The position numbers were made by a program, and so were the translations under genes. Below, in pieces: positions 1 through 14,227 of a stretch of DNA of 64,000 bases. The notes below the pieces were generated by a model. The model did no database searches. It was given only the letters and a program-made list of their open reading frames with translations, and was not told the origin of the DNA. Location: NCBI RefSeq assembly GCF_024704385.1, contig NZ_JAJDFX010000002.1, forward strand, positions 1,178,001 to 1,242,000, given 5' to 3'. How positions within the stretch are numbered: position 1 is the stretch's first letter; every line of letters starts with the position of its first letter. The stretch is from Cellulomonas sp. P24 (GTDB lineage: Bacteria; Actinomycetota; Actinomycetes; Actinomycetales; Cellulomonadaceae).

Positions 1-617
1 AGCCGGACCGTCTCGACCCGTCCGAGCTTCTGGCACAGCCGGGTCAGACCGTTCTCCTCCTTGTCGAACACCGGCATGATGACGACCTCGTTGATCGCAT
101 CCCACACGTCGACCACACCGCGGAAGTCGGTGACGTCACGCACGATCCGGGCGCGCACGGCGGCCTCGACCTCGTCGACGGAAAGATCGCGCAACCAGTG
201 CGGCGCCAGCGTGTGCCACGCCAACGGGTGCCCCTTGACGACGCAGCCGTGGTCGACGAACCACTGTGCCGTGCGCAGCAGCCGTGCCGTGTCCGGGTGC
301 CCACGCTCCGGCTCGAACGCGCCCCAGTAGAACGGCAGCGTCGCGGTGTTGAACAGCTCGAACCACAGCTCGGCCAGGTGTGCACCCTCCGACGGCGCGG
401 CGCCACCGAACGGGCTGTCCGACCGCGCGTCGGTCTCGCCGTTGGCGAACCCGATGAAGTCGAACCCGATGTTCGCGAACGCGAACGCGTGCCGTGTCTG
501 CTCGACCACGACCTCGGTGTCCGCGACCGGGTCCCCGGCCGCGGTGCGCACCACCACGGTCGACCGGCCGACCCGATGGTTCATGACCTCCGGGGTGCTG
601 CGCGATGCCACCTGCAT
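1..617 (-). CDS. GH10 endo-1,4-beta-xylanase, intracellular, 3' part outside window
   Basis: About 205 N-terminal residues of a glycoside hydrolase family 10 protein; the C-terminus with the nucleophile lies beyond the left edge. Recognisable motifs are KGHPLAWH (the family RGHxLxWH substrate-binding strand) and WDAINEV, whose Glu near residue 177 is the acid/base catalyst; FYWGAFEPERG matches the usual ENxxKW..xEPxxG strand. A short beta-rich segment precedes the barrel. There is no signal peptide or lipobox, so it should act in the cytoplasm on imported xylo-oligosaccharides rather than on polymeric xylan. ATG at 617 is preceded by GAGGAG at good spacing. It is the last visible gene of the operon starting at 9295. 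Confidence 0.85.
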   Translation of the reverse strand, partial: MQVASRSTPEVMNHRVGRSTVVVRTAAGDPVADTEVVVEQTRHAFAFANIGFDFIGFANGETDARSDSPFGGAAPSEGAHLAELWFELFNTATLPFYWGAFEPERGHPDTARLLRTAQWFVDHGCVVKGHPLAWHTLAPHWLRDLSVDEVEAAVRARIVRDVTDFRGVVDVWDAINEVVIMPVFDKEENGLTRLCQKLGRVETVR

Positions 618-698
618 GTGACGGCTCCTCTCGTGCTCTGCCCCGCTCGTGGGGTCCCTGTGGGCCCTGCGCCCCGTTCGGTTGCTGAACCGGCCGGT

Positions 699-1448
699 TC
701 AGACCTGACTCATGCCGCCGTCGACCACCAGCTCGGCACCGGCGACGAAGCTGCTCTCGGACGACGCGAGGAACAGCGCGGCCGCGGCGATCTCGTCCGG
801 GCGACCCACGCGGCCGACCGGCACGGCGTCCTCGATACGTCGCAGCACCGTTCCATCCTCGCCGTCCGCACCGACGAACGCCGAGAAACCGACGGACATC
901 GTCGGCCCCGGGCTGAGGGCGTTGACGCGGATCCTCCGGTCGCGGAGCTCGGAGGTCAGTGTCCGGGCCAGCGACCGCACGGCGGCCTTGCTCGCGTTGT
1001 ACACCCCGTGCCCGGGATCCCCGTTGCTGCCGGAGATCGAGGAGATCAGCACCACGGTCGCACCGTCCCGGAGCAGCGGCAGCGCCCGCTGGACGGTGAA
1101 GAACGTCCCCCGCACGTTGAGGTCGGCCACCCGGTCGAACAGGGCGCCGGTCATCTCGCCGAGCGGCGCCTCGCTCCCGCCACCGGCGTTCGCGACCAGC
1201 ACGTCCAGCCGACGACCGGTCGCGCCGATCGTCTGCATCACCCGGTCGAGGTCGTCGAGCGACGCGGCGTCGCCGGCCACCCCGGTCGCATGCGGCCCGA
1301 GCTCCGCCAGCGCGGCGTCGAGGGTCGCCCGCGTGCGGCCGGTCACGACGACGTCCGCACCTTCCGCGACGAAGCGCCGGGCGATCGCCAAGCCGATCCC
1401 CGCCGTCCCGCCGGTCACGAGGGCCAGCATCCCGTCCAGTCGTCCCAT
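699..1448 (-). CDS. SDR family oxidoreductase (copy 1)
   Basis: A classical short-chain dehydrogenase/reductase of 249 residues. Visible are the NAD(P)-binding TGGTAGIG motif (residues 12-19), the NAG motif near 87, catalytic Ser near 137, and the YNASK active site with Tyr150 and Lys154; PG follows the catalytic strand. It is a close paralogue of the SDR at 5294-6037: the C-terminal 15 residues are identical. It lies 6 nt downstream of the GH3 gene and upstream of the GH10 gene in one operon. It probably oxidises or reduces a sugar, sugar lactone or polyol from the same pathway; the substrate cannot be read from sequence. Confidence 0.9.
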   Translation of the reverse strand: MGRLDGMLALVTGGTAGIGLAIARRFVAEGADVVVTGRTRATLDAALAELGPHATGVAGDAASLDDLDRVMQTIGATGRRLDVLVANAGGGSEAPLGEMTGALFDRVADLNVRGTFFTVQRALPLLRDGATVVLISSISGSNGDPGHGVYNASKAAVRSLARTLTSELRDRRIRVNALSPGPTMSVGFSAFVGADGEDGTVLRRIEDAVPVGRVGRPDEIAAAALFLASSESSFVAGAELVVDGGMSQV

Positions 1449-1454
1449 CTCCGG

Positions 1455-3782
1455 TCACCCTCTCGTCTCGGCCGCGGTGACCGCAGGCGGTCGGTCCGCG
1501 GGTACGACCTCGACCGTGACGTCGACCCAGCGGGCGTCGGCGACGGTGATCGGGTGCCGGTCACCGACGAGGTCGACGGTCGCCTCGACCGTCCTCTCGG
1601 CGCACGACGTCCCGACCCACAGCTCGACGATCCCCGGCTCGACCGCACGCACCAGGTCCCGGCCGCTGAAGCCCAGCCGGGTGGTCGGCACCGCGAACCG
1701 CACCGTCGCCGCGGCCCCCGGCTCGAGCTCGACGCGAGCGAAGGCGAGCAGCTGCGCCACCGGCCGCGTGATCGACGCGACGGGGTCGTGGGCGTACAGC
1801 TGCACGACGTCGGCGCCGGACCGGTCACCGGTGTTCGTGACCCTGACCGTCGCCTCGATCGTCCCGTCGGTCGGCACGGTCGACGGGACCTGCAGCCGGT
1901 CGTGGGAGAACGACGTGTAGGACAGCCCGAACCCGAACGGGCGGACCGGCTGCGGGTCGAGGTTCGACACCGACGACGCCCCGCCGAGGGCCGGGTGCAG
2001 GTAGGAGTACGGCTGCGCACCCCCGGAGCCCGGCATGCTGACCGGGAGTCGGCCCGACGGGTTGACCCGTCCGCCGATCACGCCGGCGATCGCCCGCGCA
2101 CCCTCCTCGCCCGGGAAGAACGCCTGCACGACGGCCGCGCACGCGTCGAGGGCCCACGCGACTGCGTAGGGGCGCCCGGTCACGAGCACGAGCACGACGG
2201 GTGTGCCGGTGGCGAGCACGGCCTCGACCAGCTCGCGCTGCACCCCGGGCAGCTCGAGGTCGTCGACGTCGCACCCCTCGCCGGACGTGCCACGACCGAA
2301 CAGCCCGGCGCGGTCCCCGACCACGACGACCGCGAGGTCCGCCCCGGTCGCGGCTGTCACGGCGTCGGCGATGCCGGCACGGTCCTCGCCGTCGACCCCG
2401 CACCCCTCGACGTAGGTGAGCTCGGTTCCGGTCAGCTCGTCACGCAACGCGTCGAGCACGCTGGGCACGTCGAGACCGAGCGGCACGTCCGGATGGAAGT
2501 CGAGGACGTGGTTGGCGAACGAGTAGCAGCCGAACAACGCGGTCGGACGGTGCGCGTTCGGCCCGACGAGGGCCACCCGCGACGGTCCGGACAGCGGCAG
2601 CGTCCCGTCGTTCGACAGGAGCACGATCGCCTCCTCGGCGACCCGCGCGGCGAGCGCCCGGTGCTCGGCGGGATCGAGGTCGATCGCGTCGACCTGGGGT
2701 GCGTCCGCGAGCCCGTCGAGGAGCCCGAGCTCCGCCTTCTGCCGGAGCACCCTGGTGACCGCGCGGTCCACGAGACTCTCGGGCACCGTCCCGGCACGCA
2801 CCGCGTCGGCCAGCGGGCGCCGGTAGGCGTTGCCGGTCGGCAGCTCGACGTCCACGCCGGCGGCCAGGGCCTGGGCAGCGGCGTCACCGAGATCGGCGGC
2901 CACACCGTGCAGCGACGCGAGGAATGCCACCCCGAAGTAGTCGGCGACGACCACGCCGTCGAACCCCCAGCGGTCCCGCAGGACCCCCGTCAGCAGCGAC
3001 GCGTCCGCCGCTGCCGGCAGGCCGTCGACCTCGGCGTACGAGTGCATCACCGAGCGCGCGCCGCCGTCGAGCACGGCCATCTCGAACGGGATCAGCAGGA
3101 CGTCGGCGATCTCGCGGGGCCCTGCGTGCACCGGGGCGAGGTTCCGACCGGCCCGCGACGCCGAGTACCCGACGAAGTGCTTGAGGGTCGCGACGATCCC
3201 GGCCTCCTGCAACCCGCGCACGTAGCTCGTCGCGACGGTGCCGACGACGTACGGGTCCTCCGCGATGCACTCCTCGACGCGCCCCCAACGCGCGTCCCGC
3301 ACCACGTCGAGCACCGGCGCGAGGCCCTGGTGGATGCCCAGGGACCGCATCGTCGTGCCGATCGCCCGCCCCATCTCCTGGACCAGCTGCGGGTCGAACG
3401 ACGCACCCCAGGAGAGTGGGGCCGGGAAGGTCGTCGCCTGCCAGGCCGCCAGCCCGGTCAGGCACTCCTCGTGCACGACGGCCTGGATCCCGGTGCGTGT
3501 GTGCTCGACCAGCCAGCGCTGCCGCTCGCGCAGCGACCTCGCCGCGCTCGCCGGATCCACCGGTGCCGTGCCGTAGAACCGCGTGATCTGACCGATGCCG
3601 TCCCGCGCGAACTCCTCGAACGCCGGCTCCTCGTCGAGCATCGCGTCCTGCAGCGGCGCGACGGCGGCCCCCGAGCCGGCGTCCACCCAGACGCCGACGA
3701 GCTGCGCCAGCTTCTCCTCGAGCGTCATGCCCGCGAGCACCGCCTCGACGCGCTGCGCGACGTCGGGGACCTGCGCTGTCAT
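1455..3782 (-). CDS. GH3 beta-glycosidase (beta-xylosidase/beta-glucosidase)
   Basis: Glycoside hydrolase family 3 exo-enzyme of 775 residues with the usual (beta/alpha)8 domain, alpha/beta sandwich and C-terminal fibronectin-III-like domain (from about residue 650). The catalytic nucleophile is Asp near residue 279 in VVADYFGV; KHFVGYSASRAGRN is the family substrate-binding KHF motif, and GRNLAPV resembles beta-xylosidase-type members. No signal peptide, so cytoplasmic. I chose ATG at 3782, which overlaps the preceding tautomerase stop as ATGA; an upstream in-frame extension would run through that gene. With a GH10 xylanase in the same operon, release of xylose or glucose from imported oligosaccharides is the likely role. 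Confidence 0.9.
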   Translation of the reverse strand: MTAQVPDVAQRVEAVLAGMTLEEKLAQLVGVWVDAGSGAAVAPLQDAMLDEEPAFEEFARDGIGQITRFYGTAPVDPASAARSLRERQRWLVEHTRTGIQAVVHEECLTGLAAWQATTFPAPLSWGASFDPQLVQEMGRAIGTTMRSLGIHQGLAPVLDVVRDARWGRVEECIAEDPYVVGTVATSYVRGLQEAGIVATLKHFVGYSASRAGRNLAPVHAGPREIADVLLIPFEMAVLDGGARSVMHSYAEVDGLPAAADASLLTGVLRDRWGFDGVVVADYFGVAFLASLHGVAADLGDAAAQALAAGVDVELPTGNAYRRPLADAVRAGTVPESLVDRAVTRVLRQKAELGLLDGLADAPQVDAIDLDPAEHRALAARVAEEAIVLLSNDGTLPLSGPSRVALVGPNAHRPTALFGCYSFANHVLDFHPDVPLGLDVPSVLDALRDELTGTELTYVEGCGVDGEDRAGIADAVTAATGADLAVVVVGDRAGLFGRGTSGEGCDVDDLELPGVQRELVEAVLATGTPVVLVLVTGRPYAVAWALDACAAVVQAFFPGEEGARAIAGVIGGRVNPSGRLPVSMPGSGGAQPYSYLHPALGGASSVSNLDPQPVRPFGFGLSYTSFSHDRLQVPSTVPTDGTIEATVRVTNTGDRSGADVVQLYAHDPVASITRPVAQLLAFARVELEPGAAATVRFAVPTTRLGFSGRDLVRAVEPGIVELWVGTSCAERTVEATVDLVGDRHPITVADARWVDVTVEVVPADRPPAVTAAETRG

Positions 3783-4147
3783 CGCAGCCCTCGGGCGCCG
3801 GGGTACCAGTCCTCGAGGGTGTTCTCGTTGACGGCGATGAACACGTCGTCGGGTCGGACGCCCTCGGCCTCGAGCCGCCGCGCGACCGCGTCGAACATGC
3901 GTGCCTTCGTCGCCGCGTCGTACATGCGCACCATGAGGATCCGCACGTAGACCACGTCGCGACGATCCCCACCCAGGTAGTGCGGGTCGGCGATCAGGTG
4001 GTCCGCCGGCAGCGGGTGGATCACCTGGAACCTGTCCTCCGCGTCCATGCCGAGACCCTCGACGAGCCCCGCGTTGACGGCGTCGGCGTAGGCGAGACGG
4101 GTGGCGGCCGGGACGGTGTCCGCGACCTCGATCGTGACCAGTGGCAT
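3779..4147 (-). CDS. Tautomerase_2 family protein
   Basis: A 122-residue tautomerase-superfamily protein. After Met removal the N-terminus is Pro (MPLVTIEV), the catalytic base of this superfamily, and the body (PADH...YLGGDRRDVVYVRI...PDDVFIAVNE) fits the Tautomerase_2 (PF14552) pattern rather than the short 4-oxalocrotonate tautomerases. It overlaps the Gfo/Idh gene by 1 nt (TGATG) and the GH3 gene by 4 nt (ATGA), so translation is probably coupled. Members act on enol/keto substrates; here it may isomerise an oxidised sugar intermediate made by the neighbouring dehydrogenases. That role is inference from context only. Confidence 0.82.
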   Translation of the reverse strand: MPLVTIEVADTVPAATRLAYADAVNAGLVEGLGMDAEDRFQVIHPLPADHLIADPHYLGGDRRDVVYVRILMVRMYDAATKARMFDAVARRLEAEGVRPDDVFIAVNENTLEDWYPGARGLR

Positions 4148-5220
4148 CAGACCCAGACCTCCTTGGTGACGCGCACGTCGGCGCGGGTACGTGCGGACTC
4201 CTCGATGGCCAGGCCGAGCGCGTGGTCCTGGCAGCCTTGCGCGAGCGGGTACGGCGCCGGCCCCTCGTCACGGACCCACCGGCCCATGGCGGCGAGGTGG
4301 GCGGCGACCGCGATGTCGTCCTCGGACAGCCGCGTCCCCACCCAGGGGTTGCGGTAGACGATCCGGCCGTCGAACGACGTGTGGACGACCTCGTTGCCCT
4401 CGAGGTTCATGTCCACCCCGGTGCGTCGGTACACGACCGGCGAGGTGACGACGCCGTCCGCGGTCAGCCGCGTGACCTCGTCGTCGACGATCTCCCCGAG
4501 CGAGCCGCGGATCACGATCCGTCGTGCACGCAGCGGGTTCCACCACTGGTTCTCGACGAAGTCGTACAGCCCCGTGCGCCCGTCGCCGAAGTCGAGCGTG
4601 GCGATCGTCGTCGTGCGCGGGCCCGGCTGCGGGTCGTCGACCCAGCCGTCGAACGTGAGCGGGTCGGCCAACGGTGCGACGAAGGCCCGGGCGCTGACCA
4701 CTGCGTCGTCCAGGTCGACACCGAGGAAGCCGCGCACCAGTGACACCGCGTGATACAGGTGCGTCGAGGCGATCTCGACGGAGGTCGGCGTGCCGATCAC
4801 CCCGTCGCGCACCACGGCGAGCCGTGACGCGTGCCCGGGCATCAGCATGTACTGCTCGCCGACCTGCACACGGCCCGAGCCGCCGACGTCGTGCCACAGC
4901 GCGCGCAGACCGTCGAGGTCCGGCGCCGGTGGCGTCTCGGCCAGGACCTGGGCCCCGGCGGCGACGAGCTCCCGCACGACGTCCGGCATCGCCGGCCACG
5001 AGACCGCCGCCACCACGAACTCGGGGGCGAGGGCGAGGACCTCGTCGATCGTGCGAACCGCACGCACGCCCCAACGGGCGGTGATGCGCTCGGCCTCGGC
5101 CTCGGTCTGGGTGACGACCCCGACCACCTGCAGGCGGTCCGGGGCCGCTTGGGCCATGCGGAGGTGGAACTCGGAGCGCCAACCGCTCCCGATGACTGCG
5201 AATCTCACGGGACCCGACAC
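4147..5220 (-). CDS. Gfo/Idh/MocA family oxidoreductase
   Basis: A 357-residue NAD(P)-dependent sugar or cyclitol dehydrogenase. The Rossmann fold starts at once (RFAVIGSGWRSEFH), followed by the family strand-helix pattern and the ETPPAPD segment in place of the usual EKP motif; the C-terminal half is the alpha/beta substrate domain. I chose GTG at 5220, which has GAGGAAG about 8 nt upstream; an in-frame ATG at 5256 would add 12 residues with no good ribosome site. Lys is absent from the usual EKP position (ETP here), which is seen in some divergent members. It sits between the second SDR and the tautomerase in the operon, pointing to oxidation or epimerisation of an imported sugar. Confidence 0.85.
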   Translation of the reverse strand: MSGPVRFAVIGSGWRSEFHLRMAQAAPDRLQVVGVVTQTEAEAERITARWGVRAVRTIDEVLALAPEFVVAAVSWPAMPDVVRELVAAGAQVLAETPPAPDLDGLRALWHDVGGSGRVQVGEQYMLMPGHASRLAVVRDGVIGTPTSVEIASTHLYHAVSLVRGFLGVDLDDAVVSARAFVAPLADPLTFDGWVDDPQPGPRTTTIATLDFGDGRTGLYDFVENQWWNPLRARRIVIRGSLGEIVDDEVTRLTADGVVTSPVVYRRTGVDMNLEGNEVVHTSFDGRIVYRNPWVGTRLSEDDIAVAAHLAAMGRWVRDEGPAPYPLAQGCQDHALGLAIEESARTRADVRVTKEVWV

Positions 5221-5293
5221 CAGACGTACTTCCTCTCGACTGTCCTGACGCACCACCGGTTCCCGGCGGTGCCCGTTCCCGATCGACGACCGG

Positions 5294-6037
5294 TCAAACC
5301 TGACTCATGCCCCCGTCGACGACCAGCTCGGCGCCGGCGACGAAGCTCGACTCGTCCGAGGCGAGGAACAGCACGGCGGCGGCGACCTCGTCCGGGCGCC
5401 CGACGCGTCCCACCGGGATCGCGGCCACGACCTGCTGCTCGACCGCGTCGTCGCCGCCGGTGAACGCCGCGAACCCGGCGGTCGCCGTCGGGCCGGGGCT
5501 CACGGCGTTCGCACGGATGCGGCGTCCGCGCAGCTCGGCCGTCAGCGTGCGTGCCAGCGAGCGCACCGCGGCCTTGGTCGCGTTGTAGACCGCGTGCCCC
5601 GGTCCCCCGTTGCTCCCCGCGATGGACGACGTGAGCACGATCGTCGCGCCGTCCCGCATGAGCGGCACCACCCGCTGCACCGTGAAGAACGTGCCGCGGA
5701 AGTTCAGGTCCGAGACCAGGTCGAACGCCTCCGGCCGGGTGTCGGCGACCGCTGTCGCGGCGACGTCCCTGCCGGCGTTCGCGACGAGCACGTCGACCGG
5801 GCGGCCACGCTCGCGGAGCGCGTCCGCCAGCCGGTCCAGGTCGGCGAGGTCGCTCGCGTCGCCGAGGACCCCCGTGACGTGCGGTCCGAGCTCGGCGAGG
5901 GTGTCGTCGATCTCGGCCTGGTGCGGCGAGGTCACGACGACGTCGGCCCCCTCCGCCACGAACCGGGTGGCGATGGCTCGCCCGATGCCCGCGGTGCCCG
6001 CCGTGACCACCGCGAGCCGTCCGTCCAGCTGTCCCAT
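5294..6037 (-). CDS. SDR family oxidoreductase (copy 2)
   Basis: Short-chain dehydrogenase/reductase of 247 residues. It has TAGTAGIG (one Gly of the first copy's glycine motif changed to Ala), NAG near residue 88, Ser near 137, and YNATK with Tyr151 and Lys155. It is clearly a paralogue of the protein at 699-1448; the C-terminal blocks GRVGRPDE and [19 protein letters not shown] are shared exactly. It is the first catabolic gene after the permeases (55-nt gap). Two closely related SDRs flanking a Gfo/Idh enzyme suggest successive or parallel oxidation steps on related substrates; the specificities are unknown. Confidence 0.9.
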
Positions 6038-6092
6038 CAGTCCTCCCCGTTCGTGTCGGTCACCGGTCGGACGCCGGCCTGGTAGCGGCGGC

Positions 6093-6881
6093 TCATTTGA
6101 GCGCCCCGGCCGCGAGACCGCGCTCGAAGTACTTCTGCAGCGACAGGTACGCGATGATCTCCGGCACCGCGGTGATGACCGCTGCCGCGAGCACCCCGGT
6201 CTGGTCGTTCGTGTACTGGCTCGTGAAGAACGACGGCAGGAGCGTCACGACCTGCTTGCTCGGGTCGTTGAGCATGAGCATCGGGAGCAGGAACGCGTTC
6301 CAGGAGTTGATCAGCGTCAGCACCACGATCGCCGCGGCGATCGGTCGCGTGAGCGGCAGGACGATGTTCCAGAAGACCTGCACGATGTTCGCGCCGTCGA
6401 CCCGTCCGGCCTCCATGAGCTCGGTCGGGATGCCCGCGAAGTAGTTCCGTGCGAGCAGCACCGTGAACGGCACCTGCAGGGCCGCGAGCGGCAGGATCAC
6501 CGCGATGAGCTCGTTGTACATGTCGAAGGTCGACGCGGTGACGAACAGCGGTGTCAGCAGCACCGCCTCCGGCATGGTGAGCGCGGCGATGAGGATCCAG
6601 AACCAGATCTCCTTGCCGGCGATGCGCAGCTTGGCGAAGCCGAAGGCCGCGAGCATCGTGCAGACGTAGACGATCGCGATCGTCGAGACCGAGATGAGGA
6701 TGCTGTTGCGGAAGTAGGTACCGACCACCCCGGTGTCGAAGACCTTCTGGTAGTTGCCCACGCCACGCCCGGCGAGGGAGCCCTGCACCATGGCGATCAG
6801 GGGCGCGAGGTACGGCAGCGCGATGACCGTGACCAGGATCTGCAGGCCGATGCGGGACGTGCGACTTCGTGACTCGAACAC
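6093..6881 (-). CDS. ABC sugar transporter permease, MalG type
   Basis: Inner-membrane permease of a CUT1-type carbohydrate importer, 262 residues, six predicted membrane segments, beginning with one near residues 10-30. The EAA loop that contacts the ATPase is visible as [20 protein letters not shown]. The C-terminal RGLAAGALK is typical of MalG-like subunits. The start is GTG at 6881 with GGGAGG 7 nt upstream. It is 4 nt downstream of the MalF-type gene. No ATPase gene is in this operon, so a shared MsiK-type ATPase elsewhere probably energises it, as is usual in actinobacteria. Confidence 0.92.
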
Positions 6882-6885
6882 CCGT

Positions 6886-7845
6886 CTACCTCCCTTCGGC
6901 TCTGCGGTTGCGCACGCTCATGAGCACGCCTCCGGCGATGGCCAGCATCAGCAGGGCGACCGAGATGGCGGCCGCGTAGCCGAAGTGCTTCTGCTGCACC
7001 ATCGTTTGATAGATGTAGGTGCCCAAGAACTCGGTCCCGTGGTTGGGCCCACCCTTGGTGACCAGGTACGGGATGTCGAAGGTCTTCAGCGCTCCGATCA
7101 GGCCGAGCATCGCCAGCGCGGATGTCGTCCCGCGGCACATCGGCCAGACGATCGACCACAGGGTGCGGACGCTCCCGGCCCCGTCGATGCGGGCCGCCTC
7201 GAGGATCTCCGGCTCGATCTGGCTCATCGCGGCGTAGAAGAGGATGAACGTCAGCCCCGTCCACTGCCAGATCGTGATCGCCATGACCACGCCCATCGCA
7301 GTGGACGACTCCGCGAGCCAGGGTCGTGTCAGCGCATCGAGGCCGACGTGGCTGAGCAACCAGTTGAACTGCCCGTCCACGTCGAAGATCTGGCGGAACA
7401 CCGGGGCCATCGTGGCCGGGGCAAGCACCGTCGGCACGAAGATGATGACCTTGTAGATCGCTCCGAGCCGGACCCGCGAGTGCATGATCGCGGCGAACAC
7501 GAACCCGATCGCGGTCTGGACCGTGAACGTGATGACGTAGAAGTAGGCCGTGTGCCAGATCGCGTTCCAGAAGACGGTGTCGCCGACCATCTTCGTGAAG
7601 TTGGCGGTGCCGACATGCGTGGGGCTCGACAGGATGAACCCGTTCCAGTCGAGCGTGGCGACGTACCCCGTGAACCCGATCGAGAAGTAGATCAGGCCCA
7701 CGATCAGCACCACGGCGGGGAGGATCCACGGAAGTCCCGCACCCTGCAGGTGGCTGCGTCGCCGTCCGCGCCGGGCCCCGCCGGGGCGGCCGGTCGAGAT
7801 GACCGGCCGTCCCGTCGGGTGTGGCGCCGTTGTCGCTGCGCTCAC
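6886..7845 (-). CDS. ABC sugar transporter permease, MalF type
   Basis: CUT1-type sugar permease of 319 residues with a short cytoplasmic N-terminus rich in Arg and Gly, then about six membrane segments starting with LPWILPAVVLIVGLIYF. The EAA loop reads EAARIDGAGSVRTLWSIVWPM. GTG at 7845 is the chosen start: it is 70 nt downstream of the binding-protein stop, whereas a longer in-frame version from 8004 would overlap the upstream gene by about 90 nt. It pairs with the MalG-type gene 4 nt downstream. Confidence 0.88.
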   Translation of the reverse strand: MSAATTAPHPTGRPVISTGRPGGARRGRRRSHLQGAGLPWILPAVVLIVGLIYFSIGFTGYVATLDWNGFILSSPTHVGTANFTKMVGDTVFWNAIWHTAYFYVITFTVQTAIGFVFAAIMHSRVRLGAIYKVIIFVPTVLAPATMAPVFRQIFDVDGQFNWLLSHVGLDALTRPWLAESSTAMGVVMAITIWQWTGLTFILFYAAMSQIEPEILEAARIDGAGSVRTLWSIVWPMCRGTTSALAMLGLIGALKTFDIPYLVTKGGPNHGTEFLGTYIYQTMVQQKHFGYAAAISVALLMLAIAGGVLMSVRNRRAEGR

Positions 7846-7915
7846 CGCTCGGCCCTCGTTCCGGAGGACCAGGCGGAAGGCACGGACGTCAGAGCGACAC
7901 TCGGGCGGTGCTGCG

Positions 7916-9295
7916 TCACTTCTGTGCCTTCTGGACTGCCTCGAGCCCCTCGAGCGCCTGCATCGACGTCTTGTCTCCCGAGGCGACCCCGATGAGGGCA
8001 TCACGGAACGCGGTGTTGAGGTCGGCGCTCACCGTGGCGAACCGCGGCTCCGTCGCCGCGCCTGCACCCTCGGTGTAGGTCTGCAGCGCGGCCTTCTGCT
8101 TGTCCGAGTTCACCAGGTCGATCTGGTCCCACTGCGGGGTGACGCCCTTGAGCGCGGGGATGTCGTTCAACGTGTTCGCGACCGCCTGCTGGCCGGCCGT
8201 GCTCGTCGTCAGCCACAGGGCGAAGGTGGTCGCCGCCGCCTGCTTGGTCGACTTCGCGCTGACCGCGAGCCCGTAGTCGGCGTCACCGAACATCGATCCG
8301 GTGTTGCCCGTCCCCGCGAGGTCGGGGAACGGGATCGGCGTGATCGTGATCGGCGTCGGGCTGCCGACTCCGGCCGCCTCCATCGCGGCCACCATGCTGT
8401 CCTTGACGGCGTACTGGGTGTACCAGGTGCCCATCATGACCATGGCGTACTTGCCCGACATGAAGGCGTTGTTCGCGTCCGGGTACTGCTGCAGACCGAC
8501 GGCGCCCTCCTGCATGATCCCGTCGGTGAACAGCGACTTCCACAGGTCCATCGCCGTGACGAACTTCGGGTCGGTCCAGGGGACCTCACCCTTCGACGCC
8601 TTGACGTACAGACCCGGCTCGACGTTGTCGGCGATGGCCTCGAACGTGTCCATGTCGAACGCCCACTGCCCGGCGCCCTGCACGAAGCAGCCCTGGCCGT
8701 CCGCGGTGAGCGTCGCGCAGACGCTCTTCCACTCGGCCATCGTCGTCGGCGCCTTCAGGTTGTACTTGTCGAAGATGTCCTGGTTGATCCACAGGCCGCC
8801 GGAGTAGACCGCACCGGCTGACAGCCCGACCAGCTTGTCGCCGACGGAGAGGCCGTCGACACCGGCGGGGGCGAGCTTGGACTTCCAGTCGCTGCCGAGC
8901 GCGCCCTCGACCGCGGAGGTGAGGTCGATCGCGCCGGCCTCGAAGGTCTGGACCCCGCCGTTCGCCGAGCCGGGGGCGACGTTGAACACGTCCGGACCTT
9001 GGCTCGAGGTGATGGCCGGGCTCAGGACCGAGTCGTACGAGTCGATCGGCTTCGACACGAACTCGACCTTGATGTCGGGGTACTCCTTGTTGAACGCGGC
9101 AATGAGCTTGCTCGCGTTGGTGGCGTCGGGCGTCCAGCCCCACCAGGTGATGTCGCCCGACGTGGCCGAGCCCGGGGTCCCCGTTGTCGCGCCAGAGCCG
9201 CCCGAGCAGGCGGTCAGGGCCAACAGCGCGAGACCTGTGACGGCGGCGACCGCACCAAGTCGGCGGCCGCGCAGCGTCCTCATCGACGTCCGCAT
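7916..9295 (-). CDS. ABC sugar transporter substrate-binding lipoprotein
   Basis: Extracellular solute-binding protein family 1, 459 residues, first gene of the nine-gene operon. The N-terminus has a positively charged region, a hydrophobic stretch and a lipobox LTAC followed by SGG, so it should be anchored on the outer face of the membrane by a lipidated Cys near residue 27. ATG at 9295 has AGGAGA upstream; longer in-frame starts run through the regulatory region. The gene is divergent from the LacI regulator and shares the operator region 9498-9546. The ligand is probably a xylan- or glucan-derived oligosaccharide, judged only from the GH10 and GH3 genes downstream. Confidence 0.9.
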   Translation of the reverse strand: MRTSMRTLRGRRLGAVAAVTGLALLALTACSGGSGATTGTPGSATSGDITWWGWTPDATNASKLIAAFNKEYPDIKVEFVSKPIDSYDSVLSPAITSSQGPDVFNVAPGSANGGVQTFEAGAIDLTSAVEGALGSDWKSKLAPAGVDGLSVGDKLVGLSAGAVYSGGLWINQDIFDKYNLKAPTTMAEWKSVCATLTADGQGCFVQGAGQWAFDMDTFEAIADNVEPGLYVKASKGEVPWTDPKFVTAMDLWKSLFTDGIMQEGAVGLQQYPDANNAFMSGKYAMVMMGTWYTQYAVKDSMVAAMEAAGVGSPTPITITPIPFPDLAGTGNTGSMFGDADYGLAVSAKSTKQAAATTFALWLTTSTAGQQAVANTLNDIPALKGVTPQWDQIDLVNSDKQKAALQTYTEGAGAATEPRFATVSADLNTAFRDALIGVASGDKTSMQALEGLEAVQKAQK

Positions 9296-9497
9296 CTGTG
9301 CTTCTCCTGTTCTGCTCGCTCTGCTGTGAACGAGCTCGATACATCCCGTCGGGGTGCCCGGTGGTCCGGGTGCCCGCTCTCCGGTCGGCGGCGCCGTCCG
9401 GTCGTGCACGTCATGTCCGCGCTGCAGTCCGGTCGACCGGGCCGACCGGCACGGAGCGACGGTCGGGGTCTTCGCACGCCATGTCGTCCTCGCCATC

Positions 9498-9546
9498 TCG
9501 TACCCGATAACGAAAGTTGCGTAGAAACTTTCGTTATCGGGTACGA
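9498..9546. promoter_or_regulatory. Long inverted repeat, putative LacI operator between divergent genes
   Basis: A perfect inverted repeat with 21-bp arms (9498-9518 and 9526-9546) around a 7-nt centre, in the 300-bp gap between the binding-protein gene and lacI. Each arm contains ATAACGAAAGTT. The inner parts also read as two near-palindromes, CGAAAGTTGCG (9511-9521) and AGAAACTTTCG (9523-9533), each one base from the CGAAAsTTTCG type of element known upstream of actinobacterial xylanase genes. Placement suggests that it controls both divergent transcripts and is bound by the adjacent LacI protein. Binding is inferred. Confidence 0.7.
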
Positions 9547-9595
9547 TAGACGTGCCGTCGGGTGCCCGTCAACATCAAGCGCAGGAGGAATGCGG

Positions 9596-10606
9596 ATGTC
9601 TGGTCGAACCGTGACCATCGCGGACATCGCTCACGCAGCGGGCGTCTCGGTGCCCACCGTGTCGAAGGTCCTCAACGGGCGACGCGGGGTGTCCGCGGCG
9701 ACGCGACGGCACATCGAGCAGCTCTTGGTCGAGCACGGCTACGAGCGACGCGGACGCACCGGGCAGGGCGCCGGGCTGGTCGACCTCGTCATCAGCGACC
9801 TCGACACCCAGTGGGCCACCGCGCTGCTGCGCGGGGCACAGGCCGAAGCGGCACGTCTCGGGGCCGACCTCGTCATCACGACCACCCACGGCAGCCCGGT
9901 CGGCACCCCGGACTGGCTCGACCACCTCGCCGAGCGGGGCTCCGACGGCGTCGTGCTGATCGTCTCCGAGCTCCTCCCTGCCGGCCGCGAGGAGCTCGCC
10001 CGCCTCCGCATGCCCGTCGTGCTCGTCGACCCGGTCGGCAGCAGCGACCAGGCGCTGCCCACCGTCGCCGCGACCGACTGGGCCGGCGGCCGCGACGCCA
10101 CCGACCACCTCATCCGCCTGGGGCACCGCCGGATCGGCTTCATCACCGGGCCGATCGAGCAGATCTGCCACCGCGACCGGCTCGACGGCTACCGTGCGGC
10201 CCTGCGACGTGCCGGCATCGAGTTCGACCCGGAGCTCGTCCGCCACGGCGACTCCCTCGTCAGCGGCGGCCGGACCAGGGGTGCGGAGCTCCTCGGCATC
10301 GCGCAGCGGCCGACGGCGATCATCAGCGGCTCCGACGAACAGGCCTACGGGGTGTACCAGGCGGCGCGCGACCGCGGGCTGCGCATCCCCGAGGACCTGT
10401 CCGTCGTCGGCTTCGACGACGTCGAGCTCTGCCAGTGGGTCTCTCCGCAGCTCACCACGGTGCGGCAGCCGCTCGCCGAGATGGCACGTGAGGCGACCCG
10501 CATGGTGATCGAGCTGGCGCGCGACGGCGCCCGCGCCACCCCACGCGTCGAGCTCGCCACCACCGTGATCGAGCGCGAGTCGACCGCTCCGCCTGCGAGG
10601 TCATGA
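9596..10606 (+). CDS. LacI family transcriptional regulator (xylan-type operon)
   Basis: DNA-binding repressor of 336 residues: an N-terminal HTH with the LacI signature VTIADIAHAAGVSVPTVSKVLNG (residues about 6-28), the hinge region, then a periplasmic-binding-like effector domain ending in the family TTVRQP strand. ATG at 9596 is preferred over the ATG at 9590 because AGGAGG ends at 9588 and gives 7-nt spacing. It is divergent from the sugar-uptake operon and sits 49 nt after the large inverted repeat, so it probably represses that operon and itself until an oligosaccharide inducer binds. Confidence 0.92.
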   Translation: MSGRTVTIADIAHAAGVSVPTVSKVLNGRRGVSAATRRHIEQLLVEHGYERRGRTGQGAGLVDLVISDLDTQWATALLRGAQAEAARLGADLVITTTHGSPVGTPDWLDHLAERGSDGVVLIVSELLPAGREELARLRMPVVLVDPVGSSDQALPTVAATDWAGGRDATDHLIRLGHRRIGFITGPIEQICHRDRLDGYRAALRRAGIEFDPELVRHGDSLVSGGRTRGAELLGIAQRPTAIISGSDEQAYGVYQAARDRGLRIPEDLSVVGFDDVELCQWVSPQLTTVRQPLAEMAREATRMVIELARDGARATPRVELATTVIERESTAPPARS

Positions 10607-10637
10607 CCTCCGCAGGGGCCCACACGAGGGACCCTCG
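10597..10637. terminator. Possible bidirectional terminator between convergent lacI and GH3 genes
   Basis: Two small inverted repeats lie between the convergent genes: GAGGTCATGACCTC (10597-10610), which includes the lacI stop codon and is flanked by further pairing bases, and CGAGGG-A-CCCTCG (10625-10637). There is no T-run. The position suits termination of one or both transcripts, but the support is weak. Confidence 0.35.
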
Positions 10638-10666
10638 ATGACAGGGACGGCCGACCCGCGCATCCC

Positions 10667-12826
10667 TCACCCCACGATGTGCAGGTGGTGCGCCTCCGGG
10701 TCGTGCGCGTGCGCGCCGACCTCGAGGACGACGGCGTCCGCCGCGGGGGTGTCCAGCGCACGGACCTCCGGCACCCACGCACCCAGGGCGCCCAGGTGCA
10801 CCGGGACCGTGATCTCGACCGTCTCCCCGGCCGCCACCGGCACGCTCCGGAACCCGACCAGGAGGGTCTCGCCGGCGCGACGACCGTCGGTGCGCCGCCC
10901 GTACACCTGGACGACGTGGCGGCCGTCGCGGTCGCCCGAGTTGCGGACCTGGGCACGGACCGCGAGCGCGCCGTCCACCGACCGGTCGACGCCCGCTCCG
11001 ACGATCGAGAACGTCGTGTACGACATCCCGAACCCGTGCGGGAAAGCCGCGGGCGCCCCGAGGCGGTCGAGCAGCCGTTGCCCGTGCCACCGGTCGTACG
11101 TGACCGCGTGCGCGTCCTTGTCGAACGAGGGCAGGTGCTCCTCGCTCGTCGGGATCGAGTAGGGCAACCGGCCCGCAGGGTTCTGGACGCCCGTGAGGAC
11201 GTCGGCCAGGGCGTGACCGCCCTCCATGCCCGCGTACCACATCATCACCAGGGCCGGGACGTCGTGCCGCCACTCCTCGCACACGACCGCGCCGGCCGCC
11301 ACGACGCTGACGACGGTCCGCGGGTTCGCCGCCGCGACCGCACGGATGATCTCGACGTCGACGGGGCGCAGCCGCAGGGAGTCCCGGTCGCCGCCGAACC
11401 CGGCGGTCATGATCGACTCGCCGAGCTGCGGCACACCCGCCCCTGCCGGCGCCGGCGGGAACAGCGCCAGCAACGTGGGGTCGGCGAAGGTGTCCCCGCC
11501 GACGTACTCGCCCTCGTCCCGCCCGTCGAACCCGGCGACGACCAGGGCGACGTCGGCCTCGGCCGCAGCCTGCGCGGCGGCCTGCGGGTCGTCCTGGTCG
11601 ACGAGCACGACCTCGGCGCCCGGGAAGGCCGCCCGGATGCCGTCGAGCGGTGAGACGTGGCTCGGCGCGTGCACCCACGACGACCCGAGGTCGCCTTCGT
11701 TGGGCGTGACGGCCAGGCGACCGATCACCGCGATACGTCGGATCAGTCCCGGGTCCAGCGGGAGCACCGGTGCGCCGTCGACCGGGTCGTTCTGGAGCAG
11801 GACCATGGCACGCGCGGCGACCTCGCGTGCGAGCGCGCGGTGCTCCTCGCACGCCATCACCGCGGGGGCCGGGTCCTCGACCTCCCGGTCCGCGAACGAC
11901 CGGAGCTGTGCGGCGACCAGGCGCACGCCGGCACGCTCGGCCAGGGCCCAGGACGTCTCACCGGCCGTGAGCTGCGCCGGCAGGTCCCGGGCGCGGAGCT
12001 GCCGGAAGGGTTCCTCCAGGTCGAGCCCCGCGTTGAGGGACGCCGCGGCGTCGCGCAGACCCCAGATGAAGTCGCTGACCGTGACGCCGTCCCAGCCCCA
12101 CTGGTCGCGGAGCACCTCCGTGAGCAGGTAGCGGTTCTGGCCGGCCCACTCGCCGTTCACCGAGTTGTACGCGGACATGATCGCTGCCACGCCCTCGTCG
12201 ACGACGCGGCGGAAGTGCGGCAGGTAGACCTCGTGCAGCGTCGCCTCGTCGATGGTCACGTCGACGTGGAAGCGTGCGTTCTCCATCGAGTTCAGCGCGA
12301 AGTGCTTCGCGCAGGCCATCGCGTAGCGCTGCACGCCGCGGGTCAGCGCCGCACCGAGCTCGCCGAGGTGGAACGGGTCGTCGCCGTACGTCTCCTGGAT
12401 GCGCCCCCAGGCCGGGTGCCGCGGCAGGTTGACGCAGACCCCGCCGAAGAAGTTGCCCCCCTGCGCGCGCACCTCGCGTCCGATCGCCGCGCCGACGCGT
12501 TCCTCGAGCTCGACGTCCCAGGTGGCGCCTCTCGCCATGGAGACGGGGAAGGCCGTTCCCTCACCGGCGACGCACCCGCGCGGTCCGTCGACGAACCTGG
12601 TTCCCGGGATGCCCAGCCGTGCCACCTCGCCGTGCACGTACGGCCGGGCGTTGTAGATCCGGCCCATCTCGTCCAGCCCCGGCCAGAACGGGGTGTCGCC
12701 GTCCAGCAGCCCGAGCATCTCCTCCGGGCCCAGCCGGCGGACGAGCGCCGTCGCCTCGGCGAACGGGTCGGCGCCCGCCCGTACCGCGTCGACCGCCCGG
12801 GTGTACGCGTTGACGTCGTCGTCCAT
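10667..12826 (-). CDS. GH3 beta-glucosidase
   Basis: Glycoside hydrolase family 3 enzyme of 719 residues. The nucleophile is Asp near residue 252 in VTVSDFIWG; KHFALNSMENARF is the substrate-binding motif; the C-terminal third holds the alpha/beta sandwich and a fibronectin-III-like domain (VRAQVRNSGDRDG...). No signal peptide. ATG at 12826 is chosen because an open frame continues far upstream through unrelated genes. It is convergent with lacI and 59 nt downstream of a membrane-protein gene on the same strand. It is distant in sequence from the GH3 protein at 1455-3782, so the two likely differ in substrate or linkage. Confidence 0.9.
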   Translation of the reverse strand: MDDDVNAYTRAVDAVRAGADPFAEATALVRRLGPEEMLGLLDGDTPFWPGLDEMGRIYNARPYVHGEVARLGIPGTRFVDGPRGCVAGEGTAFPVSMARGATWDVELEERVGAAIGREVRAQGGNFFGGVCVNLPRHPAWGRIQETYGDDPFHLGELGAALTRGVQRYAMACAKHFALNSMENARFHVDVTIDEATLHEVYLPHFRRVVDEGVAAIMSAYNSVNGEWAGQNRYLLTEVLRDQWGWDGVTVSDFIWGLRDAAASLNAGLDLEEPFRQLRARDLPAQLTAGETSWALAERAGVRLVAAQLRSFADREVEDPAPAVMACEEHRALAREVAARAMVLLQNDPVDGAPVLPLDPGLIRRIAVIGRLAVTPNEGDLGSSWVHAPSHVSPLDGIRAAFPGAEVVLVDQDDPQAAAQAAAEADVALVVAGFDGRDEGEYVGGDTFADPTLLALFPPAPAGAGVPQLGESIMTAGFGGDRDSLRLRPVDVEIIRAVAAANPRTVVSVVAAGAVVCEEWRHDVPALVMMWYAGMEGGHALADVLTGVQNPAGRLPYSIPTSEEHLPSFDKDAHAVTYDRWHGQRLLDRLGAPAAFPHGFGMSYTTFSIVGAGVDRSVDGALAVRAQVRNSGDRDGRHVVQVYGRRTDGRRAGETLLVGFRSVPVAAGETVEITVPVHLGALGAWVPEVRALDTPAADAVVLEVGAHAHDPEAHHLHIVG

Positions 12827-12885
12827 CGTCCTCACCTCGTCGAAGAGCCCACTGCATCTGTGCCGTCCGGCATCAGGACCGCGGC

Positions 12886-13395
12886 CTACCGGCGGCGGAA
12901 GAACTCCGCACTCGGGCGCTGAGCGAGCAGCACGATGATGGCCGCGGCGAGGCCGACGTCGATCACACCCATGACCAGGCTGAGAACGCCGGAGGGTCGC
13001 AGGAGCGAGATCAGCCCGAAGAGCAGGGTCAGCCCGGCGAAGACCCAGATGACGATGCGCGCCCAGTTCTTCCCCTTGACGATCAGCCAGGCGAGCACGC
13101 CCCACAGGATCGCGAAGACGATGGCGGACACCACGCTGACGGTGACCGCCACGCGCGTCGCGGTGTCGAGAGTGTTCTGGTCCATCGTCGGCGAGGCCTT
13201 CGCCAGGGCGGACCTGACAGAGTCCTGGGTCGTCAGCGTCACGATCACGCCGAGCAGCGCCAGGACGATGCGCACAACGATCAGCCTCGCAGCGTTGACC
13301 ACGGACGCCGGGGCCGGGCCCTGGACGGTCGGTCCACCCCAGGCCGCCTCCGGCATCGACGGGTAGTTGCCGGGGGGCTGGATCGGGTTGCTCAT
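12886..13395 (-). CDS. Small integral membrane protein of unknown function
   Basis: 169 residues with a Pro/Gly-rich cytoplasmic N-terminus (about 35 residues) and four hydrophobic segments near residues 38-55, 85-105, 112-132 and 138-158, ending FFRRR. The arrangement is common in small actinobacterial membrane proteins with no assigned role. The start is ATG at 13395 with GAGGA upstream. It is divergent from the methyltransferase at 13535. I do not recognise a specific family. Confidence 0.75.
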   Translation of the reverse strand: MSNPIQPPGNYPSMPEAAWGGPTVQGPAPASVVNAARLIVVRIVLALLGVIVTLTTQDSVRSALAKASPTMDQNTLDTATRVAVTVSVVSAIVFAILWGVLAWLIVKGKNWARIVIWVFAGLTLLFGLISLLRPSGVLSLVMGVIDVGLAAAIIVLLAQRPSAEFFRRR

Positions 13396-13534
13396 GGAGT
13401 CCTCGCGTGCGGTTGCGTGGTCCGGACGGTGCGGTGCTGCCGGGAACCACGCCGTTCAGCACCGTCGCCAGGGTAACGAGGCGACGACGCCACCGGGGCC
13501 GTTTCGGGACAGCCGACGTGGCAGAGTGCAAGCC

Positions 13535-14227
13535 GTGCGCACGGTCCTCCTCTCGATGCTCGACCGCGTCAACGCCGCGCACCCCTGGAGCCACAACGAC
13601 GCCTACCACCGCTGGATCCTCCGGCAGGTGCCCAACCATGCGACGACGTCGCTCGACGTCGGCTGCGGCACGGGGAACCTGGTGCGTGCGCTGGCGGGGC
13701 GCGTCGATCGCGCGACCGGCATCGACACCGACCGTGCGGTCGTCGACCTCGCGCGGAGCAGGTCGACCGCCCTCCCGACCGTCACCTTCGAGGTGCGCGA
13801 CCTGCGCGACCCACCGGACGGGAGCGTGTTCGACGTCGTGACGGCGGTTGCCGTCGTCCACCACCTGCCGCTGCCCACCGCCCTGGCCCGGCTCCGTTCT
13901 CTGGTCGCGCCCGGTGGACGGGTCGTGGTCGTCGGCTGCTACCGGGCGGCGACCCGCGGAGACCGGCTCCTCGACCTCGTGGCCGTCCCTGCGAACCTGG
14001 TCATGGGTCTGCTCCTGTCGGCCCGCTCGTCCGAGGCGCGCGTCGCCATGAGCGCGCCGACCGCGCCCCCGACGACGACGCTGGCCGAGGTCAGGGCCGT
14101 GGCGGCGCAGCTCCTGCCCGGTGCGCGCGTGCGACGGCGACTGTTCTGGCGGTACTCGCTCGTCTACTCGGCCCCGGAACGCCTCGCCCCCGGTCAGAAG
14201 CCGAACGTCACGATCGGGTCGAGGTGA
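13535..14227 (+). CDS. Class I SAM-dependent methyltransferase
   Basis: About 230 residues with the SAM-binding motif I LDVGCGTGNL, motif II acidic residue in GIDTDRAVV, and the motif DVVTAVAVVHHLPL typical of Methyltransf_11/25 proteins. GTG at 13535 is chosen as the start of continuous similarity-like sequence (VRTVLLSMLDRVNAAHPW); ATG at 13556 is the alternative. The 3' end overlaps the convergent NUDIX gene by 34 nt. The methyl acceptor is unknown. Confidence 0.78.
   Translation: MRTVLLSMLDRVNAAHPWSHNDAYHRWILRQVPNHATTSLDVGCGTGNLVRALAGRVDRATGIDTDRAVVDLARSRSTALPTVTFEVRDLRDPPDGSVFDVVTAVAVVHHLPLPTALARLRSLVAPGGRVVVVGCYRAATRGDRLLDLVAVPANLVMGLLLSARSSEARVAMSAPTAPPTTTLAEVRAVAAQLLPGARVRRRLFWRYSLVYSAPERLAPGQKPNVTIGSR

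Follow-up and report, generated by a model that had tools for sequence, protein, structure and literature searches.

The first genes of a 64,000-nucleotide (nt) stretch of the genome of Cellulomonas sp. P24 (contig NZ_JAJDFX010000002.1, positions 1,178,001 to 1,242,000; hereafter the window) belong to an operon that probably, at a rough estimate of 55%, encodes a LacI-controlled module for the uptake and oxidation of xylo-oligosaccharides. In the 4.4 Mb genome of this soil-type actinobacterium nine genes follow each other on the minus strand, from position 9295 of the window to position -669, beyond its first nucleotide. They code, in this order, for a solute-binding protein, two permeases, a short-chain dehydrogenase (SDR-A), a Gfo/Idh-fold protein, a Tautomerase_2 protein, a glycoside hydrolase of family 3 (GH3), a second short-chain dehydrogenase (SDR-B) and a glycoside hydrolase of family 10 (GH10). 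A first-pass annotation of this DNA had listed the same nine genes, and all were found on the minus strand, in the order and at the coordinates that it gave. Its description of them as all tightly overlapping was exaggerated: two of the eight junctions overlap (Gfo/tautomerase by 1 nt, tautomerase/GH3 by 4 nt) and the remaining gaps measure 4-81 nt. The nine-gene observation is sound, and the module was confirmed to be real and recurrent.

The importer consists of an SBP_bac_1 sugar ATP-binding cassette (ABC) solute-binding lipoprotein (7916-9295; PF01547, 94 bits), which is encoded by the first operon gene in relatives as well, and of two PF00528 permeases, permease 1 of the CUT1 type with a GTG start (6886-7845) and permease 2 (6093-6881). 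A gene for an ABC ATPase is not present among the operon genes. The surroundings of the importer were surveyed in 222 genomes of the family, its closest relatives being defined by a permease 2 of at least 74% identity. Such permeases occurred in 11 genomes, and in all 11 they lay beside a Gfo gene accompanied by an SDR gene; an importer devoid of redox genes was not found among these close relatives. Named relatives in which the operon is shared are Cellulomonas and allied genera. The core extends to Microbacterium, Agreia, Rathayibacter, Nesterenkonia, Promicromonospora and others, and the tautomerase gene adjoins the Gfo gene in several other genera. Because the order solute-binding protein, permease, permease, SDR, Gfo recurs in many genera, it is far beyond chance. 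The linkage in 11 of 11 genomes supports the view of the first-pass annotation that redox genes and importer have a common function; the redox genes are not accidental neighbours.

The clade also contains more remote importers (52-63% identity), whose genes are accompanied by those for a tautomerase, a VOC protein, an aldo-keto reductase or Gfo and adjoin GH1- or GH78-looking genes. At three loci (L158, L159 and L155) importers of this clade occur together with a diverged tautomerase and an NAD-epimerase-like gene; in L158 and L159 a gene for a GH78-looking protein comes next. A paralogous cluster in the Cellulomonas sp. P24 genome itself (2530001-2550000) combines a related importer with an ETPPAP-type Gfo protein (52%), two VOC proteins, an aldo-keto reductase, a GH1-like gene, a canonical Gfo protein, two sugar-isomerase-like genes, a beta-propeller protein and an SDR. 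Modules close to the actinobacterial versions were also met in two records, one titled Chloroflexi (L061) and one Planococcus (L070), which are possibly misbinned or misnamed.

The nature of the imported sugar is indicated by the glycosidases. The GH3 protein (1455-3782) scored 1270 bits with the curated beta-xylosidase/alpha-L-arabinosidase model NF052329 of NCBIfam, which has a cut-off of 1050, and matched the PDB beta-xylosidases 7zb3 and 8c7f. The GH10 gene runs from 617 to -669, its 5' half occupying positions 1-617 of the window. Its product scored 116 bits with PF00331 (Pfam threshold 22) and 483 bits with PDB entry 8b73, an endo-xylanase (PMC12485897), and inspection of the sequence revealed the two catalytic glutamates (WDAINEV and LHMTETT); a tomatinase-like enzyme was also considered. 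No signal peptide was seen on reading the GH3 and GH10 sequences, and the xylanase is of the intracellular type. In relatives the module is accompanied by GH10, GH120 (in the Cellulomonadaceae) or GH3, and once (L061) by xylose isomerase; a small number of genomes have, of the module, just the Gfo gene beside GH3, GH10 and GH43- or esterase-like genes. These family matches and this company make xylo-oligosaccharides the most likely imported substrate. The need for an unusual sugar, which the first-pass annotation suggested, is not supported: the glycosidases of the operon and the GH120 and xylose isomerase of its relatives point to ordinary xylo-oligosaccharides and xylose, and oxidative routes for xylose and arabinose that employ SDR and Gfo/Idh dehydrogenases, lactonases and IlvD dehydratases have already been described (PMC9795676).

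The operon seems to be governed by a full-length LacI-family regulator that is encoded divergently on the plus strand (9590-10606), has LacI/CytR/RbsR-type NCBIfam matches and also partners the importer in relatives. A promoter on the minus strand (TTGACG-18-TATCGT, 9543-9572), found by a promoter scan, is followed at once, ahead of the gene for the solute-binding protein, by the palindrome GAAAGTT-N7-AACTTTC (9512-9532), the likely LacI operator, which lies within a perfect 21-nt inverted repeat (9498-9518/9526-9546). The promoter arrangement is kept in relatives, which also possess similar operator sites. In the whole 4.4 Mb genome, searched with up to two mismatches, the palindrome is a single site, and no second copy that would point to a regulon beyond the locus was found. 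The scan for sigma-70-like promoters over 11.5 kb of the locus gave none besides the one before the solute-binding protein gene. As to terminator-like sites, one weak site on the minus strand was seen, which is within chance expectation, and no Rfam match was obtained in positions 1-13000 of the window. The nine genes are likely to form one transcription unit. A tenth gene, encoding a short LacI-type protein of 203 amino acids with a helix-turn-helix and a truncated sensor domain (-1277 to -666), shares 4 nt with the GH10 stop.

In the mechanism that we propose, xylo-oligosaccharides would enter through the ABC importer, energized by an ATPase from elsewhere, and would be cut in the cytoplasm by GH10 and GH3; both steps follow from the protein families. 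The aldose set free, xylose or perhaps arabinose, would most likely be oxidized by SDR-A and SDR-B to its lactone or to a keto-sugar, which is proposed because of their neighbours and because an aldo-keto reductase replaces SDR-A in the Kineococcus operons. More tentatively, the Gfo-fold protein and the Pro-1 tautomerase might act on the oxidized sugar, the latter by proton abstraction beside a carbonyl. The product could enter central metabolism by a pentonate route (Weimberg/Dahms-like) or return to the isomerase route; in Cellulomonas sp. P24 the lactonase, dehydratase and aldehyde dehydrogenase steps might be supplied from another locus, or the module might end earlier.

The oxidative part of this scheme is illustrated by related operons. 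In the Microbacteriaceae and others the core SDR-Gfo-tautomerase is followed by GH10, an aldehyde dehydrogenase, an IlvD-type dehydratase, a zinc alcohol dehydrogenase, a XylB-like SDR and, as a rule, a lactonase-type protein of the SMP-30 family; full operons occur in Microbacterium, Agreia, Rathayibacter, Nesterenkonia and Cellulomonas. The IlvD proteins have pentonate-type dehydratases as their nearest solved structures, scoring 729 bits with PDB entry 8ej0, 669 with the dehydratase 5j83/5j84 and 666 with the L-arabinonate dehydratase 9evv, and the aldehyde dehydrogenases are near 3v4c. The XylB-like SDR reached 328 bits with the D-xylose 1-dehydrogenase model, whose cut-off of 400 it thus missed, and the SMP-30 protein matched, among others, 7plb, a xylonolactonase (PMC9795676). 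Known pentose routes employ dehydrogenases of the SDR, MDR or Gfo/Idh type, SMP-30 lactonases and IlvD/EDD dehydratases (PMC9795676). The continuation of the core into genes of pentose oxidation in the Microbacteriaceae suggests that the module feeds oxidative pentose catabolism, and the lactonase, IlvD and XylB-like genes make oxidation through a lactone very plausible. The pathway imagined in the first-pass annotation is partly supported: this holds for the oxidation of a sugar, and not for the need for an unusual one. Some Cellulomonas variants have a VOC-fold protein and an amidohydrolase, a distant relative of L-fuconolactonase, in place of the tautomerase. Elsewhere in the Cellulomonas sp. 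P24 genome (817-823 kb; L145:9199-14720) IlvD, SDR, SMP-30, FAH and zinc dehydrogenase genes are clustered, with a GH42-like gene and a sugar importer as neighbours; they represent a probable non-phosphorylating sugar-acid pathway.

Both SDRs are PF13561 proteins, SDR-A (5294-6037; 209 bits) being a classical short-chain dehydrogenase in which the serine and the Tyr-x-x-x-Lys motif are present, and SDR-B (699-1448; 195 bits) belonging to its sister lineage. They are 69% identical and fall into different groups of the tree: SDR-B with the single SDR that follows Gfo in Cellulomonas variants (support 89/89), and SDR-A with the SDRs that precede Gfo. They look like two old lineages that were brought together rather than a fresh duplication. 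In a check for pentose 1-dehydrogenases no NCBIfam model reached its curated cut-off with SDR-A, SDR-B or the Gfo protein.

The Gfo/Idh/MocA-fold protein (4147-5220; PF01408, 49 bits) has a Rossmann domain and an alpha/beta C-terminal domain, as judged from PF01408, an AlphaFold model with a mean predicted local distance difference test (pLDDT) score of 90.7, and Foldseek. The lysine of the EKP motif that marks the dehydrogenases of this family is replaced by threonine (ETPPA; ETPPAP in the operon protein) in all 97 homologues aligned to it, and a STHxYHA motif is invariant in the same 97. In one operon (G067) that has SDR-A, tautomerase, GH3 and GH10, the ETPPAP protein is missing and a different Gfo-fold protein is encoded before the SDR.

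The tautomerase (3779-4147; PF14552, 61 bits) has, by sequence and by fold, the malonate semialdehyde decarboxylase FG41 as its best match in the PDB; the single-sequence model is of low confidence (pLDDT 68.6) and was used for the fold class alone. According to an ortholog alignment it keeps Pro-1 and Asp-37, which it shares with the FG41 enzyme. The decarboxylases are characterized by Arg-73/Arg-75 (Pseudomonas type) or Gln-73/Arg-76 (FG41 type) (PMC10606566), whereas the protein of the window has Arg-73, Tyr-75 and Asp-76, position 73 being Arg, Ser or Lys among close orthologs. Since neither the arginine pair of the Pseudomonas enzyme nor Arg-76 of FG41 is kept, a malonate semialdehyde decarboxylase function was rejected. 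The tautomerase is about 80-90% identical to the window protein across importer operons of several genera, and this very high conservation suggests that it has a specific role. In the importer-SDR-Gfo operons each locus contains either a tautomerase or a VOC-fold protein, never both, beside the Gfo gene or one gene away from it. This does not establish that the two are simple stand-ins for each other, as a diverged tautomerase and a VOC gene are adjacent in two operons with aldo-keto reductase and GH1 (G081 and G102). The keto-enol step put forward in the first-pass annotation has the presence of the Pro-1 tautomerase as its one basis.

The link between GH10 and the module is loose. Relatives of the GH10 gene were present in 140 of the 222 family genomes, in about ten of them near the module and mostly elsewhere, and two congeners have GH10 at the same chromosomal place without the module (about 10 kb). 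One of these (G157) matches the window from -212 to 635 and again from 10682 to 13668; about 81 bp are found there in place of the block 636-10681. A second GH3 gene on the minus strand just outside the module (10667-12826; 719 amino acids), whose product is far below every curated GH3 cut-off, adjoins GH10 in this congener. The other congener (G156) has kept GH10 and has neither the block nor the second GH3 gene nor the short LacI gene. Since a related genus (G107) possesses the block together with GH10 and the short LacI gene (58% identity), the pattern fits a gain here as well as a loss in the relatives. The first-pass annotation had held that glycosidases lacking the redox genes in close relatives would speak against their association; this is what was found for GH10 at this locus in the two congeners, and not for the importer. 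The absence of the importer-redox-GH3 block beside a retained GH10, and the usual position of GH10 elsewhere, would also agree with passive hitch-hiking, in which the redox genes serve another pathway and came to share the operon by a chance insertion near GH10. This is very improbable: the redox genes accompany the importer in each of the 11 family genomes that have a close relative of it, and several genera combine them with GH10, GH3 or GH120.

Several observations weigh against the oxidation of free xylose as the task of the module. The genome contains an ordinary xylose isomerase with an adjoining kinase-like gene, and a second GH3 operon (L146) that has no redox genes; growth on xylan therefore does not depend on the oxidation of xylose. 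A lactonase, a pentonate dehydratase, KGSADH or an aldolase is not encoded among the operon genes. Ordinary dehydrogenase chemistry is doubtful for the Gfo protein because every homologue is devoid of the EKP lysine. Furthermore, the related operons have their own XylB-like SDR, so that the substrate of SDR-A and Gfo may not be free xylose. This last point could be taken to mean that the SDR, Gfo and tautomerase enzymes work on xylo-oligosaccharides that are decorated or have been oxidized before. They would oxidize a xylose unit and thereby let a side group (for example 2-linked methylglucuronate or 3-linked arabinose) leave by keto-enol elimination, or they would repair keto-sugars. The closeness of the tautomerase or VOC gene to Gfo fits the abstraction of a proton beside a newly formed carbonyl, and a hexuronate catabolic cluster lies near the window (-19821 to -12841, minus strand; L009:179-7159), comprising UxuA, a mannitol-dehydrogenase-like protein of the UxuB type, UxaC, altronate dehydratase and an enolase-superfamily protein. 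A search of the genome for the alpha-glucuronidases GH67 and GH115 yielded neither, which favours a decorated substrate a little; this absence is not telling by itself, and other alpha-glucuronidases were not searched for. Given that the operon encodes neither an elimination enzyme nor an AP_endonuc_2 lyase nor a ThuA-type hydrolase, we regard a decorated substrate as rather unlikely. Less likely still is an NAD-dependent glycosidase activity of the Gfo-fold protein, as in GH109/GH188, which would give the operon a third, redox-assisted glycosidase. Its top Foldseek matches are indeed the GH188-type sulfoquinovosidases 8qc5 and 8qc2, and in Tessaracoccus, Actinomyces and Schaalia its gene is immediately flanked by glycosidase- or esterase-like genes on one side and by GH10 on the other, with no SDR. 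However, the identity in the structure search is only about 19%, ordinary Gfo/Idh dehydrogenases score about equally, and the EKP lysine is kept in the aligned 8qc2, but not in the operon protein; its assignment as a GH188 sulfoquinovosidase was rejected.

The occurrence of a related importer and a diverged tautomerase with an apparent GH78, and with GH1, likewise argues against a function confined to xylose and indicates that parts of the toolkit are not xylose-specific. It may be speculated, with little confidence, that an SDR, a lysine-less Gfo protein and a Pro-1 tautomerase (in other species a VOC-fold protein) constitute a new redox-plus-enolization toolkit of one importer clade, by which sugars are rearranged or stripped non-hydrolytically and in which Gfo uses a new catalytic mechanism. 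If the toolkit strips decorations from xylan or re-routes pentoses, the enzymes for biomass would gain a useful supplement. For the uptake and oxidation of xylo-oligosaccharides, which we prefer, the parts come from known families and the overall purpose is probably known in kind; we read the operon as a variant, in itself new, of xylan import with oxidation. In this recurrent module of actinobacteria the import of sugar, the hydrolysis of xylan inside the cell and the oxidation of sugar make up one unit. Two testable puzzles stand out in an otherwise ordinary-looking gene list, a Gfo/Idh subfamily of which no member seen has the family lysine and a highly conserved tautomerase; this subfamily and its tautomerase partner are worth laboratory work.

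Among known systems, the 3-keto-glycoside (oxidation-elimination) routes use Gfo/Idh and AP_endonuc_2 proteins. They have a Gfo/Idh-fold protein in a glycoside operon in common with the module, but that of the module is without the lysine, and neither an AP_endonuc_2-type lyase/hydratase nor a DUF1080 protein is encoded among the operon genes. A canonical Gfo protein together with two sugar-isomerase-like genes is present in the paralogous cluster of this genome. Intracellular xylan operons of the same family (for example L176 and L179) and the L146 operon likewise join a CUT1 importer to GH10 and/or a GH3 xylosidase, with a LacI-type regulator in L176 and L179. In contrast to the module, these operons have no SDR, Gfo or tautomerase, and their importer is a different one (permeases about 26-34% identical). 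In the open-licence literature no description was found of xylan operons or operons for xylose oxidation that include a tautomerase, nor of a Weimberg pathway in Microbacterium, and the word tautomerase does not occur in a review of oxidative pentose catabolism (PMC9795676). The Weimberg and Dahms routes of Caulobacter and Azospirillum consist of pentose dehydrogenases, a lactonase, an IlvD/EDD dehydratase and an aldehyde dehydrogenase (PMC9795676), the same gene types that are present in the relatives of the operon. Compared with these routes, the operon would have the upper part only, to which it adds an importer, intracellular GH10 and GH3 enzymes, a lysine-less Gfo protein and a tautomerase.

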